From NCBI GenBank assembly GCA_020849295.1, contig JADLGN010000015.1:1-64000 (forward strand): a stretch of 64,000 nucleotides of DNA. Reading direction: 5' to 3'. Made by a program: the position numbers and the translations under genes. The notes under the pieces are model-generated. The model worked only from the letters and a program-made list of their open reading frames with translations. It did no database searches and was not told where the DNA came from. The stretch comes from Bacteroidia bacterium. Lineage in GTDB: Bacteria; Bacteroidota; Bacteroidia; NS11-12g; UBA9320. Shown here piece after piece: positions 1 through 6,220 of this stretch; position 1 is the stretch's first letter; every line of letters starts with the position of its first letter.

Positions 1-1
1 G

Positions 2-1132
2 TTATCGGTCAGCTTAAAAGACGACAGTGCATAAAATAAACAGACGACAAGAAAAGAAAATATGATACCTGACTACCAATCAATAATGCTTCCAATGCTC
101 CGACTTGTTTCGGACAAGAAAGAACATAAGTATCGTGACTTAATTGAAAACTTGGCGACCGAGTTTAAAGTGACAGACGAAGAACGCAAAGAACTTTTGG
201 CAAGCGGACTGCAAGCAATTTTTGACAACAGAGTTGGTTGGGCAAAAACTTATCTCAAAAAAGCGGGACTACTTGACTCTCCCAAACGTGCAACATTTGT
301 AATCACACAACTTGGACTTGACACCTTAAAGAAAAATCCCGACCGAATTGATGCAAAATATTTAAGACAGTTTCCTGCATTTCTTGAGTTTCAAAATGCT
401 AGCCGTAACGACAACAACAATGACGAAGAAGTAACAACTCAAGAACCGAGCGACCAAACACCCGAAGAAAATCTAGACAAAGCATATCAGAGAATACGCA
501 AATCGTTAGCATCTGAACTGCTCAACAAAGTTGTTGACCTATCGCCAACATTTTTTGAGCGACTTGTGGTTGAACTGTTAGTAAAAATGGGTTACGGTGG
601 TTCAATCAAGGACGCAGGTAAAGCAATTGGAAAAAGTGGTGACGAAGGAATTGACGGAACAATAAAGGAAGATAAACTTGGACTTGATATTATTTACGTT
701 CAAGCAAAGCGTTGGAAACCGGGCAATGTTGTCGGACGACCAGAACTTCACAAATTCGTTGGTGCTTTAGCTGGACAAGGTGCAAAAAAGGGAATTTTTA
801 TAACGACATCTAATTTCACTAAGGAAGCGTTGGACTACACACCAAAGAATGAAACTAAAATTGTTCTCATTGACGGTGAACAATTGGCTCAACTAATGAT
901 TGACTACAATCTTGGTTGCACGACACAACAGATTTACGAACTTAAAAAAATTGACAGTGACTATTTTGGCGAAGATTAACGGACACGACCGAAAAGAAAG
1001 CCGAACCGATAACAACGGGTTTAAGAAATTGGCGGTGACGTGCTTAATTGAACATTTTACCTCGCATCAACTTTTGTGGTGTATTGACAGTTTTGTGCTC
1101 CGAAACCCGCCACTGCGCCAAGCACCAAACCG
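2..1132 (+). mobile_element. Putative integron gene cassette 1 (Mrr cargo)
   Basis: The window opens with GTTATCGGT (1-9), and its exact reverse complement ACCGATAAC stands at 1005-1013, after the ORF and at the foot of a hairpin. In integron cassettes the first bases (TTRRRY side) pair with the cassette's own R'' site because both belong to one attC in the circular form. The right boundary is taken as the G/TT step at 1132/1133. The cassette holds one ORF, the Mrr-like gene. The integrase is not in the window, so this rests on structure only. It could instead be another kind of hairpin-bounded mobile unit. Confidence 0.6.
62..979 (+). CDS. mrr: Mrr-type restriction endonuclease
   Basis: 305-aa protein of the Mrr family, a type IV-like DNA endonuclease that cuts modified or foreign DNA. 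The N-terminal ~100 residues form a winged-helix Mrr_N-like region (IMLPMLRLVSDKKEHKYRDL). A linker rich in Asn, Glu and Thr follows. The C-terminal ~145 residues are the PD-(D/E)xK nuclease domain, starting at LSPTFFERLVVELL. It carries the catalytic pattern GDEGIDG, then the YVQAKRW strand (QxK), and ends with FITTSNFTKEAL. Length matches the family. The ATG at 62 is the first start. The gene is alone in its unit, with no methylase partner, as expected for Mrr. Its role as a defence gene is inferred from the family and from the cassette context. Confidence 0.9.
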   Translation: MIPDYQSIMLPMLRLVSDKKEHKYRDLIENLATEFKVTDEERKELLASGLQAIFDNRVGWAKTYLKKAGLLDSPKRATFVITQLGLDTLKKNPDRIDAKYLRQFPAFLEFQNASRNDNNNDEEVTTQEPSDQTPEENLDKAYQRIRKSLASELLNKVVDLSPTFFERLVVELLVKMGYGGSIKDAGKAIGKSGDEGIDGTIKEDKLGLDIIYVQAKRWKPGNVVGRPELHKFVGALAGQGAKKGIFITTSNFTKEALDYTPKNETKIVLIDGEQLAQLMIDYNLGCTTQQIYELKKIDSDYFGED

Positions 1133-1138
1133 TTGGTG
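1005..1138 (+). repeat. attC-like hairpin 1
   Basis: Imperfect inverted repeat between the Mrr gene and the next ORF. Outer arms AACGGGTTT (1014-1022) and AAACCGTT (1127-1134) pair with a single unpaired G on the left arm, like the extrahelical base of attC sites. Inner arms share TTGGCG / CGCCAA. The R''-like end CCGATAAC is followed directly by AACGG, an arrangement similar to the Vibrio attC repeats. The right end GTTGGTGGC (1132-1140) is repeated inverted at 2616-2624, at the end of the next unit. Confidence 0.6.
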
Positions 1139-2735
1139 GCAAGTTTAGACGGATACTCAACCAAACGAATATAGAATGCAACATGGACGCAAAAAAAGTA
1201 TTACTTGATTTTTTAAAAAAGCCACTTGACACAGCTGACAGTGTATTTGAAATCTTTGCAACTATACCAACTGCAAAGATTTATAAAGGCAGCAAAGCAG
1301 GCGAAAGGTTTTTATTCATTAAAGGAAATCGTACTGATGCCGCTACTTTGGTAGCACACGGTGATACCGTTTTTGACGTTAGTGGTGAACACGAAATTAT
1401 TGAAGACGGTGATATTTTTCGTAGTGGTAGTTCAAAATACGGCATTGGTGCAGACGACCGTGCAGGCTGTGCAATGCTTTGGTTATTTAAAGATTTGGGA
1501 CATCACATTCTTGTGTGCGACTATGAAGAATCCACTCACAAAGATGCAATCGGTAATTGTGTAGGTTCTAAGTATTTAATGAGAGAACATCAAGACATTG
1601 CAAAGATAATAAACAACTCGTCTTTTGTTTTTGAATTTGATAGAAGGCTTGCTTATGGTAGCAGAAAAGAACATTACACTTGTTATACCTTGCCCGTTTC
1701 ACAAGAATTCCGTGATTTTATAGAGACAAATACTGGGTTTATTGATGATGATAAAAGTGGCTATACCGACATTATGGAACTCTGCACAGAAGTTTGTGGA
1801 GCAAATATTTGTGTCGGATACTCAAATGCTCATTCCTCAAACGAAAAAATAAGTATTTCAGCTTTTCAAAACACGTATGAAATAATGAGCAAACTATTGA
1901 CAAGAGAGTTAAAAAGATTTCCTTTGAAAGGGAAGGAAGGGACCACACATTTTCCACCAACAAAAACACCCGAATGGCTAAAAATAATTACGTCATTATA
2001 TCACTATGAACCAAATGATGAATTAAAAGAACAAATGAAAATGGGCATAAAAGAAAAAATGAAAATGACAGATATAGTCGATATTTTAAAAGACAGTTTG
2101 TTTTATAGTGGTTGTGGAAATGACATTGAGCCGATTACTTTTTTTGAAAAGCACATTCATTCTTTTGTTTTTTGCTTAGACACTTCATATAATTTGGAAT
2201 ATGATTCTGAATTTCCAAGTGTTAAAACACAACTAAAACAGAATAATTTTAAGAAAAGAGTAAATATTGACTTGGATATTAATTTTTTGATACAGAATGG
2301 TTGGTTTCAAAAAGGTGACGATAGATTTAACAATGAATTAAAAGCTAATTGGAGCATTTGGGAAAGAAACAACGGCTTTTTTAGTTTGGTGTTTATTTAC
2401 TGCGATTCATTTACTCTTTGGAAGAACTTATACAAAAGCAATCAATCTTATCCAATAATATTTTTCTTTCAAGGAATGTTTGACGCTTGGAAAGGTGGAT
2501 TGGGGAAAAATGAAGGCGGTGAATTTGTTGTAAACTCAGAAATATATTGTGACGGATTTTCTGTTTATAGAAACACAAATTTTATAAATCAGGATAGAAA
2601 ATGAATAAAAAACCAGCCACCAACATCGTATTGGCAATAGGCGGGCTGAACGACTTCGTATCAACAGAAGTGCAAAATTCAACTTCTGTTCTTCGATTGA
2701 ACTTCAGTGCTAAAATCCCGCCCATCGCCAATACG
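1133..2735 (+). mobile_element. Putative integron gene cassette 2 (peptidase cargo)
   Basis: The left edge GTTGGTGGC (1132-1140) has a perfect 9-base reverse complement, GCCACCAAC, at 2616-2624 immediately after the ORF. A 19-base near-perfect hairpin follows. This is the same self-complementary logic as cassette 1. The right boundary is uncertain because the expected GTT is replaced by GTGG at 2735-2738. Confidence 0.55.
1183..2604 (+). CDS. M20/M28-like zinc peptidase with unknown C-terminal domain
   Basis: 473-aa protein from the ATG at 1183. An in-frame upstream start at 1048 would lie inside attC-like hairpin 1 and is unlikely. The N-terminal ~270 residues carry the ligand set of co-catalytic zinc aminopeptidases and deacylases: VAHGDTVFD (His and catalytic Asp), GIGADDRAGCA (bridging Asp), CDYEES (Glu-Glu pair), SGYTDIMEL (Asp) and SNAHSSNEK (His). 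The remaining ~200 residues (for example FHAWKGGL-like and WSIWERNNGF-like stretches) match nothing I recognise. A hydrolase of peptide or N-acyl bonds is likely, but the substrate is unknown. As cargo between two attC-like hairpins it may serve defence, but nothing in the sequence shows that. Confidence 0.7.
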   Translation: MDAKKVLLDFLKKPLDTADSVFEIFATIPTAKIYKGSKAGERFLFIKGNRTDAATLVAHGDTVFDVSGEHEIIEDGDIFRSGSSKYGIGADDRAGCAMLWLFKDLGHHILVCDYEESTHKDAIGNCVGSKYLMREHQDIAKIINNSSFVFEFDRRLAYGSRKEHYTCYTLPVSQEFRDFIETNTGFIDDDKSGYTDIMELCTEVCGANICVGYSNAHSSNEKISISAFQNTYEIMSKLLTRELKRFPLKGKEGTTHFPPTKTPEWLKIITSLYHYEPNDELKEQMKMGIKEKMKMTDIVDILKDSLFYSGCGNDIEPITFFEKHIHSFVFCLDTSYNLEYDSEFPSVKTQLKQNNFKKRVNIDLDINFLIQNGWFQKGDDRFNNELKANWSIWERNNGFFSLVFIYCDSFTLWKNLYKSNQSYPIIFFFQGMFDAWKGGLGKNEGGEFVVNSEIYCDGFSVYRNTNFINQDRK

Positions 2736-2740
2736 TGGCC
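2616..2740 (+). repeat. attC-like hairpin 2
   Basis: The left arm at 2627-2645 and the right arm at 2717-2735 are reverse complements over 17 of 19 bases, the two differences being G-T pairs. The R''-like foot is GCCACCAAC (2616-2624). The loop holds a smaller hairpin, AACAGAAGT / ACTTCTGTT. The 3' foot reads ACGTGGCC instead of the expected ACGTTGG, so the recombination point may be mutated. Confidence 0.55.
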
Positions 2741-2872
2741 CGTCAAACTGTCTAAAAACTAAAAAATGAAGCGATTTTTAAATAAAATACTCGGAAACCT
2801 ATCTTTGAAAAAATTATATATTCGATTCTCGAAAGGTTCATTTTGGGTTTTTAGACAGACTGGCGTTAGGGG
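2741..2872 (+). repeat. attC-like hairpin 3, without an ORF
   Basis: Perfect 12-base arms CTGTCTAAAAAC (2748-2759) and GTTTTTAGACAG (2847-2858) enclose about 87 bases of AT-rich DNA with no convincing gene. The right foot is GGCGTTAGGGGC, close to the classical attC core GTTRRRY. It lies directly behind hairpin 2, so it may be the remnant of an empty or deleted cassette. Confidence 0.45.
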
Positions 2873-5628
2873 CAATCAAATGAAGACAACACCTCGACAA
2901 AATAACAATGATTGAAATTCCAAATTGACGACAACAAAATGTCTCTAAAAGAAGAACTGATATACATTGACGGGAGCAACAAAACTGATGATATTGTTTC
3001 TTACCGCTTCATTGGAATGGGTTTCAACAAAGACAAATGTGCTATCAAATTTAAAAACAATAATAAAGAATACATTTATAATGCGGACAAGGTAAAAATA
3101 GTAAAATCTGCCATTAACAGCGAAAAATCAAATAATCTCTTTCAATATCTCAGCGAAATTGCAGAAACTGTCGGTCTTACAACCGAAGAAGGAAAAAATA
3201 TACTTGCTGACAGTTACTCAAAAATCACATTCATACCCGAATACTCCATACTTGCCAATTTTCTAAACGGGGCGCAGCCGAAAGCAAATAATTTTAGAAA
3301 CCCGATTGAAATATTTCCTTTTGGCTTCAATGTAAGTCAAAAAGAGGCAGTAAACAAAGCATTTCATTCGTCTTTAAGTGTAATTGAAGGACCTCCTGGA
3401 ACGGGCAAAACACAAACAATTCTGAACATTATCGCCAACGCCGTAATGAACGGACAAAGTGTTGCGGTTGTGTCGAGCAACAACTCCGCAACAAAAAATG
3501 TCTATGAAAAATTACAAAAAAACGGAATTGAGTTTATTGCCGCTTTACTCGGAAATTCTACCAACAAAAAAGAATTTATTGATTCTCAAACAGACATTCC
3601 CGATTTGTCGCAATTCAATTTGTCGGACAAAGAAAAATCAGGCATAAAACATAGCTGTGAAAACCTTTTCAATCAACTTTCGGATTATCTCCTACAAAAG
3701 AACGAATTGGCATTACTAAAGCAAGAACTCGACTGTCTGACAACGGAATATAAACATTTTCAAGATGAGAATAAAATAGAAAATGATATTGATTTTTTAA
3801 TGAACAGAACAGCCGATAATATACTTGGGCTTTGGGTTGCGATAGAAAATCATGCATTAACGAACAAAAAACTAACTTGGTGGCGCAAATTGCGATATTG
3901 GTTCAGATATGGAAGAAAAGGAAAAACCTTATATGATATTCCTACTGAGAAAGCAATACTTATTTGTCAATCAAATTATTATCCCGTAAAAATCGAAGAA
4001 CTTAAAAACAGGCAAAATGTATTAGATACTTCTCTTAATCGTTTTTCTTTCGATGACAAAATGCAAGAATATAGCCAACTTGCTATGCAGCTTTTCAAGT
4101 CGGAGCTTTACAAAAAATACAATCGAAACCAACGAAAAAGATATGAAATTTGGGAGTTGCGTTCAAGTTCGGAAAAATTCCTAAAAGATTATCCTGTTAT
4201 TATGAGTACAACTTATTCATTACGAAGAAGTTTAGCCGAAGAAATAACTTATGATTTTGTGATTATTGACGAATCTTCTCAAGTTGATTTGGCAACAGGC
4301 GCACTTGCTCTTTCTTGCGCTAAACGAGCTGTGATTGTTGGAGACTTAAAACAACTTCCGAATGTAGTTGACGACAGAATGAAAGAAAAAACTGATGCTG
4401 TTTTTGACATTTTTTCTATTCCTGAATCCTATCGCTATTCCAATCATAGTCTGCTTGCCTCAATTATAGAAACATTCCCAAGTGTTCCCAACACACTTTT
4501 GAGAGAACATTATCGTTGTCACCCTAAAATTATTGAGTTTTGCAATCGAAAATTTTATGATAGTCAACTCATTATACAAACGGAGTCTAAAGGTGAGCGA
4601 GAGCCATTGATAGTTTACAAAACTACGGCAGGTAATCATGCACGCGAAAGAACAAATCAACGCCAAATTGATATGATTATCAACGAGATTATTCCAAACG
4701 AAAAGCTCGAAGGCATTGATTTGGGCATTGTGACTCCTTATCGGAATCAAACAAACGCCTTGCAACAAGCATTTAACAACACACAAATCAAAGCCGACAC
4801 AGTTGATAAATTTCAAGGAAGAGAGAACGATGTCATTGTTCTTTCGACTGTTGATAATGAAATTTCAGAATTTACCGACAACCCTAATCGATTAAATGTG
4901 GCTATTTCGAGAGCAGTCAAACAACTTATTTTGGTTGTGAACGGTAACGACAGCGACAAAGACAGCAACATTACTGACTTAATCCTTTATATTGACTACA
5001 ACAACTTTTCCGTAAAAGAAAGCAAATTGCGTTCTGTTTTCGATTATTTGTACAAAGGTTACGAGCAAAAACGTGCTGAAATAATATCAAAAAGTGGCAA
5101 TAAATCCGACTTTGACAGCGAAAACTTAATGTACGTATTAATTTCAAACACACTCAAACAGGACAAATTTTCAAAATATGATGTTACTTTACACTTTCCT
5201 TTGCGCAATGTTATTAGGGATTTTTCCTTGCTTACAGACGAGGAACAAAAATACGCACGACACTATAACACACATTTGGACTTTTTAATTTACAATAAAC
5301 TTGGTAAAAATCCGATACTTGCAGTTGAAGTTGATGGGTTTGAGTACCACAAAGCAGGAACAGAACAATCCGAGCGAGACAAGAAGAAAGACAGGATTTT
5401 AGCAAAATACGAGTTACCATTACTTCGATTTTCCACAACAAGTAGCGGCGAAAAGCAAAAATTGATAGACAAATTGACAGAAATAACAACATAAAAAATT
5501 GACTGCCCCTAACACGGTGTCATACGCCATAAGGGTTTTATAGCAATTTGCAAGTGCATCACTCGCTGGCAAAGTTTGTAACGATGGATAGGAAAGTGTC
5601 CACGAATTCCCTTACGGCGCATTCACCC
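2866..5628 (+). mobile_element. Putative integron gene cassette 3 (helicase-nuclease cargo)
   Basis: The left edge GTTAGGGGCA (2865-2874) has an exact 10-base reverse complement, TGCCCCTAAC, at 5504-5513, ten bases after the ORF ends. A hairpin follows. The unit thus obeys the same rule as the two preceding ones. Its right end is irregular: the expected GTT foot is replaced by an inverted copy of the hairpin 3 end. Confidence 0.55.
2912..5494 (+). CDS. SF1 (Upf1-like) helicase with C-terminal PD-(D/E)xK nuclease
   Basis: Protein of up to 860 aa, probably a DNA-processing defence enzyme. Helicase motifs in order: Walker A GPPGTGKT (~160), VIIDESSQ (~450), GDLKQLPNVV, HYRCHP (~532), IVTPYRNQ, TVDKFQGRENDVIV and NVAISRAVKQL. 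This is the Upf1/Dna2-like SF1B set. The last ~90 residues form a DUF2726/Vsr-like nuclease fold with LDFLI, AVEVDGFEYH and RDKKKDRIL, followed by PLLRF. A TTG at 2912 gives the longest frame, but the ATG at 2939 (MSLKEEL) is an equally good start. No ribosome binding site decides. Single-protein helicase-nuclease fusions of this kind are often found in defence islands, so a defence role is inferred. Confidence 0.85.
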   Translation: MKFQIDDNKMSLKEELIYIDGSNKTDDIVSYRFIGMGFNKDKCAIKFKNNNKEYIYNADKVKIVKSAINSEKSNNLFQYLSEIAETVGLTTEEGKNILADSYSKITFIPEYSILANFLNGAQPKANNFRNPIEIFPFGFNVSQKEAVNKAFHSSLSVIEGPPGTGKTQTILNIIANAVMNGQSVAVVSSNNSATKNVYEKLQKNGIEFIAALLGNSTNKKEFIDSQTDIPDLSQFNLSDKEKSGIKHSCENLFNQLSDYLLQKNELALLKQELDCLTTEYKHFQDENKIENDIDFLMNRTADNILGLWVAIENHALTNKKLTWWRKLRYWFRYGRKGKTLYDIPTEKAILICQSNYYPVKIEELKNRQNVLDTSLNRFSFDDKMQEYSQLAMQLFKSELYKKYNRNQRKRYEIWELRSSSEKFLKDYPVIMSTTYSLRRSLAEEITYDFVIIDESSQVDLATGALALSCAKRAVIVGDLKQLPNVVDDRMKEKTDAVFDIFSIPESYRYSNHSLLASIIETFPSVPNTLLREHYRCHPKIIEFCNRKFYDSQLIIQTESKGEREPLIVYKTTAGNHARERTNQRQIDMIINEIIPNEKLEGIDLGIVTPYRNQTNALQQAFNNTQIKADTVDKFQGRENDVIVLSTVDNEISEFTDNPNRLNVAISRAVKQLILVVNGNDSDKDSNITDLILYIDYNNFSVKESKLRSVFDYLYKGYEQKRAEIISKSGNKSDFDSENLMYVLISNTLKQDKFSKYDVTLHFPLRNVIRDFSLLTDEEQKYARHYNTHLDFLIYNKLGKNPILAVEVDGFEYHKAGTEQSERDKKKDRILAKYELPLLRFSTTSSGEKQKLIDKLTEITT

Positions 5629-5640
5629 AACGCCAGTCTG
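5504..5640 (+). repeat. attC-like hairpin 4 with inverted right end
   Basis: The left arm at 5516-5535 (GGTGTCATACGCCATAAGGG) pairs with the right arm at 5609-5627 (CCCTTACGGCGCATTCACC) with a few mismatches. Right of the stem the sequence AACGCCAGTCTGTCT (5629-5643) is the exact reverse complement of 2853-2867, the right foot of hairpin 3. The helicase cassette is therefore framed by a 15-base inverted repeat. This looks like a recombination or inversion scar at the array end. Confidence 0.5.
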
Positions 5641-5781
5641 TCTCCCGCCAAGTCGGGACAAGTCAAAAACCTCTTTTATTTTCATAATTCTATTCAAAAA
5701 TATCAGAATAAATCAATTATAAGAGAGTTTTATTTAAAATAAATTTTAGTTTGTAAGTATAAAAGTTGAAAAAGATAATAG

Positions 5782-6212
5782 TGTCTTGTCCTAAAATAGG
5801 TTTACACAAAAAAGTGTAAAACATGGACAAAAAAATCATTCAAAAAGCGGGTAAATATTTTACCGAAACAGAAAAACATTCAATCATTCAGGAATTAATT
5901 TCAAGTGGCTGTACCAAAGCAGAAATTTGAGAGAATTATACTTGACAAGACGAAGAACATGGTCAATTACTAAGGTGGATGCGGCAATTAGGCTACAACA
6001 CCGGAATTTAAACCAGATGACCTCACATGAGCATAGGTAACTTTACTTCAAACTGTATTCATCATTCAAAAACTAAAATCAAAACAGAAAGATTTTGGAA
6101 GAATTATTATCGAAAATAAACTACTATTGTAAACCCAATTCAGGACTAACAATGAATTGTAAACTTATTACAGGATTAATAAATAAAAACTGTAAACTTT
6201 TTTAGGACGAGT
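5782..6212 (+). mobile_element. Decayed insertion sequence
   Basis: The left end, TGTCTTGTCCTAAAAT (from 5782) running on to GGTTTAC, matches the reverse complement of the right end (6191-6212, GTAAACTTTTTTAGGACGAG) with few mismatches, giving ~23-base terminal inverted repeats. Inside are the broken start of a transposase gene and, near the right end, three spaced TGTAAAC motifs, each followed by an AGGA. The element is far too short to be complete. No target duplication is clear. It marks the edge between the cassette region and the core genes. Confidence 0.65.
5823..6012 (+). pseudogene. Transposase OrfA remnant
   Basis: The ATG at 5823 opens 35 codons (MDKKIIQKAGKYFTETEKHS) and stops at TGA 5928-5930. 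The same frame continues with ENYT, another TGA, then QDEEHGQLLRWMRQLGYNTG, which is the helix-turn-helix region of IS3-type OrfA proteins as I know them. At least two nonsense codons and the loss of everything downstream make this a dead gene. Confidence 0.65.
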
Positions 6213-6220
6213 CAGAAAAA

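Follow-up and report, generated by a model that had tools for sequence, protein, structure and literature searches.

The 64,000-nucleotide stretch analyzed here (the window; bases 1–64000 of contig 15, 182,270 bases long, in a Bacteroidia genome of 2.68 Mb and 55 contigs) opens on genes and hairpins arranged like the cassettes of an integron, which raises the question of what recombination system such an array belongs to. Positions 1–5632 comprise three cassettes, each starting with an R′ sequence that is the exact reverse complement of its own terminal R″, and because the window starts at base 1 of the contig, the contig edge coincides exactly with the edge of cassette 1. In cassette 1 (1–1131, + strand), R′ GTTATCGGT (1–9) pairs exactly with R″ ACCGATAAC (1005–1013) of attC1 (1005–1132, + strand), an imperfect hairpin with covarying consensus structure and the junction G at 1132; the ORF between them (62–979) encodes an Mrr-type (type IV) restriction endonuclease with Mrr_N and Mrr_cat domains (Pfam; PADLOC mREase_IV, 1e-92). 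Cassette 2 (1132–2741, + strand) pairs R′ GTTGGTGGC (1132–1140) exactly with R″ GCCACCAAC (2616–2624) of attC2 (2616–2742, + strand), and the 473-aa product of its ORF (1183–2604) had no match in Pfam and looks, by eye alone, M20/M28 peptidase-like. Cassette 3 (2865–5631, + strand) has the exact pair R′ GTTAGGGGCA (2865–2874) and R″ TGCCCCTAAC (5504–5513), and its ORF (2939–5494), assigned by Pfam and PADLOC searches to an SF1 AAA_11/AAA_12 helicase with DUF2726, is followed by attC3 (5505–5632, + strand; junction 5631/5632). Both attC2 and attC3 have the covarying consensus structure and match the covariance model R1 described below. An earlier note, made from the sequence alone, had read this region as an attC-like array of large cassettes with defence-like cargo. 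All three edge pairs that it listed are exact, its hairpin arm of 17 of 19 bases was located at 2627–2645/2717–2735 (89% complementary), and the endonuclease and the helicase bear out the view of the cargo. An Rfam scan of the window returned two tRNAs only, with nothing at the attC-like sites.

Self-pairing of the cassette edges goes far beyond chance across the cassettes of the genus, in agreement with the array reading. Of the 38 cassettes in the genus set, 31 had an R′ complementary to R″ at all six variable positions (6/6) and 36 at 5/6 or more; with partners shuffled, the mean was 1.6 exact cassettes and the maximum 9 in 10,000 shuffles, and an exact match of R″ with the R′ of its own hairpin occurred in only 1 of 48 cases. 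Exact pairing was also found in 48/68 cassettes from integrase-linked loci of other Bacteroidota genomes and in 42/61 from named species. The combined set therefore numbers 167 cassettes (38 + 68 + 61, with two loci counted twice, L169 = L196 and L183 = L187), with 121 exact at 6/6 and 138 at 5/6 or more. Every tested cassette was exact in L177, an array with 16 successive attC sites. About 1/6 of the cassette tests fail, probably owing to missed sites or inserted units. Self-pairing of R′ and R″ is readily explained only by a unit that was once circular and was cut at G|TT: such a circle would hold one attC cut at this point, and the R′ of the linear cassette would thus complement its own R″.

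A plain hairpin-plus-edge scan of the AT-rich genome gave 72 matches, too close to the 44–57 obtained in shuffles, and the covariance model R1 was therefore built instead, from nine attC sites aligned on the bottom strand; a loose attC pattern gave a count in the same genome that was not above that of the reversed control. Compensatory changes at 12 of the 18 consensus pairs in the nine-site alignment and a mean folding energy of −19 kcal/mol, against −11 for shuffled sequences, indicate that the attC is an imperfect hairpin of conserved structure. The bottom strand is the more stable by a small margin (0.9 kcal/mol; 119 vs 60 of 182 sites), and two conserved 1 × 1 mismatches in the stem may stand for extrahelical bases. 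R1 matches 39 sites in the window's genome and 6–25 in each of six other genomes of the genus; attC1, itself in the training set, scores 105.8 bits.

The earlier note had seen no integrase, and none lies within the window; a search of the genome for integron integrases returned no IntI above the cut-off. A single complete tyrosine recombinase is encoded on another contig, at the end of contig 9, and numerous short fragments from the 3′ end of its gene are present as well, frequently where contigs stop. Contigs 9 and 28 have 113 identical nt in common where they overlap, and the integrase frame read across the overlap spans 383 residues, with the catalytic residues present. It is followed by an untranslated stretch ending ...AATATGCGGGTATTTACTA and then by GTTATGGGC, with which a 9.1-kb cassette begins. 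The untranslated stretch is dispersed through the genome in at least eight copies (a ninth match, of 21 nt, is probably due to chance), and the six copies with sequence past the junction all diverge exactly at GTT, behind ...TTTACTA, which on sequence grounds makes it the attI. Other arrays in this genome are headed by attI copies, several with the 3′ end of the integrase gene, and three contigs stop at, or a few bases from, the attI junction. As contig 15 itself begins at an attI-type junction, another copy presumably precedes the window; it lies off the contig, with the three attI contig ends as possible neighbors and an ambiguous join. Cargo elsewhere in the genome includes one 9.1-kb cassette holding a type I restriction–modification system with an OLD-type nuclease, an EcoRI-type methylase with a GmrSD/HNH restriction endonuclease, a protein with a SIR2-Argonaute-like stretch, as well as unknown and lipoprotein-like genes.

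Orthologues of this integrase within the genus are 44–80% identical to one reference, and each has attI behind it. In a whole-protein scan, the integrases scored 190–212 bits on TIGR02249 (cut-off 265) and 199–230 on NF040815, and the TIGR02249 match was split around model positions 178–238, where the patch region is skipped. The spacing between boxes II and III is 60–67 residues in those patch-less proteins that were measured, compared with 102 in 11 of 11 IntI and 64–68 in Xer, from which it follows that the IntI patch is absent; it was found in none of the linked integrases measured. The integrase is Xer/XerA-like, with a Xer fold lacking the patch, and at its N-terminus carries ~90 additional residues that match nothing in Pfam. 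The closest solved structures are XerA (5hxy) and an archaeal Xer (4a8e), followed by IntI4 (2a3v), according to an AlphaFold model (mean pLDDT 83, pTM 0.48) that was used for nearest folds only. In the tree, the integrases and the genus's own XerC/D copies are separated with 100% SH-aLRT, and orthology to host XerC/XerD was rejected on this basis. IntI is nested within the patch-less integrases, with support of 81–93 and on a long branch; in view of this weak support and the long branch, we make no claim on descent. The integron reading of the earlier note is thus upheld in part: the array is attC-like, but the enzyme is not an IntI, nor does the array represent a CALIN orphaned from a normal integron. 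The note had proposed a search for a tyrosine recombinase with the IntI-specific patch; the recombinase present elsewhere in the genome lacks it.

The patch is regarded as necessary for integron recombination (PMC9668308; PMC8138268), and as it is absent here, the arrays might in principle be acted on by host XerC/D or by a canonical IntI passing through. The latter case, in which a patch-bearing IntI built the arrays or still serves them and the window is an ordinary CALIN, draws on the site anatomy, which is that of attC, on the class 1 IntI1 having evidently taken in a blaVEB cassette (see below), and on the frequency of canonical IntI in other parts of the phylum, namely in 105 of 395 GTDB Bacteroidota genomes. 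However, only one of these falls in the window's class, and across the 395 genomes canonical IntI showed no positive association with R1 sites (33 with both vs 44 expected). R1 sites occur in 167 of the 395 genomes (96 of the 171 genera sampled) and the patch-less integrase (E ≤ 1e-60) in 116, and the two are found together in 94 genomes vs 49 expected (odds ratio 12, p = 2.7e-24); in the window's class, 20 genomes have attC matches without a strong integrase match and 8 show the reverse. Considering also that R1 misses the class 1 attCs of R388, that the window's genome has no IntI above the cut-off and that the linked integrases measured are all patch-less, we regard service by a canonical IntI as very unlikely.

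Linkage was assessed with 80 named relatives, R1 sites being present in 36 loci and the upstream flanks serving as internal control. All 98 sites lay 3′ of the integrase gene and were co-oriented, with 0 upstream. An R′ behind the integrase gene matched the R″ of the first attC over 7–9 nt in 30 of the 36 loci, mostly at a distance of 70–170 nt from the integrase stop codon, and in relatives and on plasmids attI stands next to the integrase with cassettes inserted there. The attI core reads TATAAnnnA|GTT and has A at −8 throughout; there is also an inverted repeat about an axis at −19 and a direct repeat with copies 43 nt apart. In 18 integrase-linked loci, the integrase gene is oriented towards the array in 14 and is divergent in 4. 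These observations bear on the other candidate, host XerC/XerD, which would move the cassettes as they do pdif modules, the linked patch-less recombinase being incidental. Both enzymes are present in these genomes, and the recombinase is itself a Xer relative, with XerA as its best solved match; yet the strict adjacency and orientation of attC with respect to the integrase, the conserved attI behind its gene, the genome-level association with R1 and the joint travel of integrase and attI on plasmids leave this explanation with very little probability.

Cassettes are shared between unrelated hosts with exact edges, the identity being confined to the part inside G|TT. One is common to Flavobacterium denitrificans, where it is the first behind attI, and a Bacteroidia MAG, where it lies inside an array; the two copies are 94.4% identical between the G|TT edges, compared with 52 and 62% outside (the alignment background). 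Genomes G113 and G233, from different families, have a cassette 96.8% identical inside the edges vs 59/60% outside, and in two more genome pairs common cassettes are 88.6–90.9% identical. Two related Chryseobacterium plasmids are 89.7% identical along 3211 nt that take in integrase and attI, diverge exactly at ...ACATATAAACAAGTT (GTT) and continue with different cassettes. The earlier note had proposed comparing related strains for gain or loss of cassettes at the window's own junctions; the exact-edge variation was seen in the loci of relatives, which were the ones compared. Numerous as the hairpins are (39 in the window's genome), and despite a true MITE-like 123-nt unit at the junctions, the notion that they are ordinary dispersed REP/MITE-like repeats flanking genes by accident, unconnected with gene edges or variation, is extremely improbable and is refuted by the self-pairing cassette edges, the exact edges of common cassettes and the one-sided linkage to the integrase.

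We consider it highly probable that the arrays are cassettes of a Bacteroidota integron-like site-specific recombination system with a patch-less Xer/XerA-type recombinase, a reading drawn from sequence evidence: the cassette edges, the attC family, attI, linkage, exact-edge transfer and the absence of the patch. As the catalyst, the patch-less integrase would excise cassettes as circular intermediates by recombining folded attC hairpins, and the folded bottom strand of attC would recombine at G|TT with double-stranded attI, so that circles would enter at G|TT in every case, ~70–170 nt past the stop codon of the integrase gene. This gene faces the array in most species. In the window's genome, where the integrase is on another contig and attI copies are scattered, some including the gene's 3′ end, arrays such as that of the window would be served in trans, following what may have been a dispersal of attI by IS-like elements. 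The system would be integron-like in its working, yet it is not an IntI integron, since the defining patch proved absent on testing. It is best read as a phylum-wide patch-less platform overlooked by IntI-based surveys; those requiring canonical IntI recorded almost no Bacteroidetes integrons, with one complete case, in Salinibacter (PMC9024848). The open-access papers searched contained no previous description of the Bacteroidota system, which is apparently undescribed so far.

Classical integrons and the patch-less system have in common tandem cassettes of an ORF and an attC hairpin, the R″...R′ arrangement with crossover at G|TT, an attI beside the integrase, a single cassette orientation, cassette exchange, and defence and resistance cargo, including a blaVEB cassette found on both platforms. 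The Bacteroidota integrase differs in lacking the ~40-residue IntI patch, in falling below the IntI cut-off and in its additional N-terminal part; the attI is located at the 3′ end of the integrase gene, the attC sites are a separate sequence family with two conserved 1 × 1 mismatches instead of obvious bulges, and the cassettes reach 9.1 kb. In the chromosomal integrons of Treponema, the integrase is transcribed towards attI, in the cassette direction (PMC3607928), the same direction as in most Bacteroidota loci; these integrons are reported with intI (PMC3607928) and are set apart here by description, not by sequence. The fold, the catalytic residues, the lack of the patch and NCBIfam NF040815 are common to the Bacteroidota integrase and XerA/Xer, but Xer targets dif sites, whereas the integrase gene heads cassette arrays.

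Resistance genes tet(X) and blaVEB are present as cassettes in the patch-less system. On Acinetobacter plasmids, a 3′ piece of a patch-less-type integrase is followed by an attI-like stretch, tet(X3) and then a cut attC, and the "tyrosine-type recombinase" of the xerD-tet(X)-ISCR2 context of Acinetobacter is this same 3′ piece; that context differs in that the integrase is a broken fragment and movement is now due to ISCR2/IS elements. The tet(X) copies of Empedobacter, Myroides and two Riemerella plasmids are homologous to the tet(X3) copy from exactly G|TTATGTGC onward, and all four are preceded by R1-family attC ends. In Myroides, the terminal attC of tet(X2) scores 74.6 bits with R1, and its R″ pairs with the R′ at G|TTATGTGC; R″ and R′ are mismatched (3/6) in the Acinetobacter tet(X3) and Empedobacter copies, which indicates that the end has been altered since. 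In Klebsiella, a similar integrase piece and attI precede blaVEB-3, in a cassette 99.7% identical to that of blaVEB-1 in an E. coli class 1 integron, where the blaVEB-1 attC is the sole R1 match (45.7 bits) in the stretch examined. We infer that class 1 integrons acquired blaVEB from the Bacteroidota cassette pool.

Should the system function as inferred, cassettes can be captured without the IntI patch, and the origin of integrons becomes testable. A Xer-like ancestor has been speculated to have acquired the I2 helix (PMC4792948). Patch-less integrons may, as a tentative and rather doubtful extension, be an older or independent form, in which a Xer-like recombinase ran folded cassettes before the patch existed, IntI came from that lineage and the Bacteroidota pool still feeds class 1 integrons, as with blaVEB. 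The system suggests a route by which tet(X) and blaVEB turned mobile, and the R1-type model offers a tool for searching out a large pool of cassettes with defence and resistance genes.

Between cassettes 2 and 3 lies a palindromic 123-nt unit, GTCAAACTGTCTAAAAAC...GTTTTTAGACAGACTGGC (2742–2864, no strand assigned), which is MITE-like. Eight complete copies were present in those stretches of the window's genome that were examined, each behind an attC junction, and the unit's 3′ end is the point from which new cassettes begin. An inverted end of the unit (5632–5645, no strand assigned) is located directly behind the third junction, giving the inverted pair 2853–2870/5626–5643 (94%).

A palindromic unit of 123 nt (GTCAAACTGTCT...AGACAGACTGGC; window 2742-2864) lies directly after an attC junction, and in the window's genome the same unit was found immediately 3' of attC junctions in six further stretches (L018, L020, L024, L107, L109, and L123), with one variant measuring 113 nt. 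Its 3' end is a frequent start point of new cassettes in this genome, and the unit is either an attC-targeting MITE or a cassette lacking an ORF. The sister genome, G001, carries GTCAGACTGTC at the corresponding place. In the genomes of the fetched stretches L175 and L173, the same 9-mer (GTTCAGCAA or GTTGAAGAA) follows many attC sites and is a further genome-specific element at cassette junctions.

The cassette array is adjoined by an IS-like remnant (TGTCCTAAAATAGGTTTACAC...; window 5781-6215), which is also present upstream of several scattered copies of attI (L024, L025, and L026) and may have spread attI together with the 3' end of the integrase gene.

The patch-less integrases, which lack the IntI-specific patch, carry an N-terminal extension (residues 1 to about 90, e.g., in L073:5485-6594) with a conserved KWS...W motif. 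The extension is predicted to consist of mixed strands and helices, had no match in Pfam, and is missing in IntI1 and XerC/D. In L173-L176, the patch-less integrase genes diverge from their arrays, which is the classical arrangement, and these integrases form a small separate group in the tree. Canonical IntI scored over the cut-off in 105 of the 395 genomes of the GTDB Bacteroidota sample, nearly all of them from outside the window's class.

Pieces of patch-less integrase genes with attI directly precede tet(X3) on Acinetobacter plasmids (L277 and L278) and blaVEB-3 on a Klebsiella plasmid (L279). Sites of attC that match R1, the covariance model built from this system, occur on plasmids (L282 and L284 from Riemerella; L281 from Myroides) in regions that carry aadS, ere(D), a gene for a class D beta-lactamase, catB, and tet(X), and these resistance clusters therefore look like arrays of the patch-less integrase system. 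Chryseobacterium sp. SNU WT5 has its array on a plasmid, and within this array lie a gene for an IS110-family transposase and a group II intron (L265 16281-20063).
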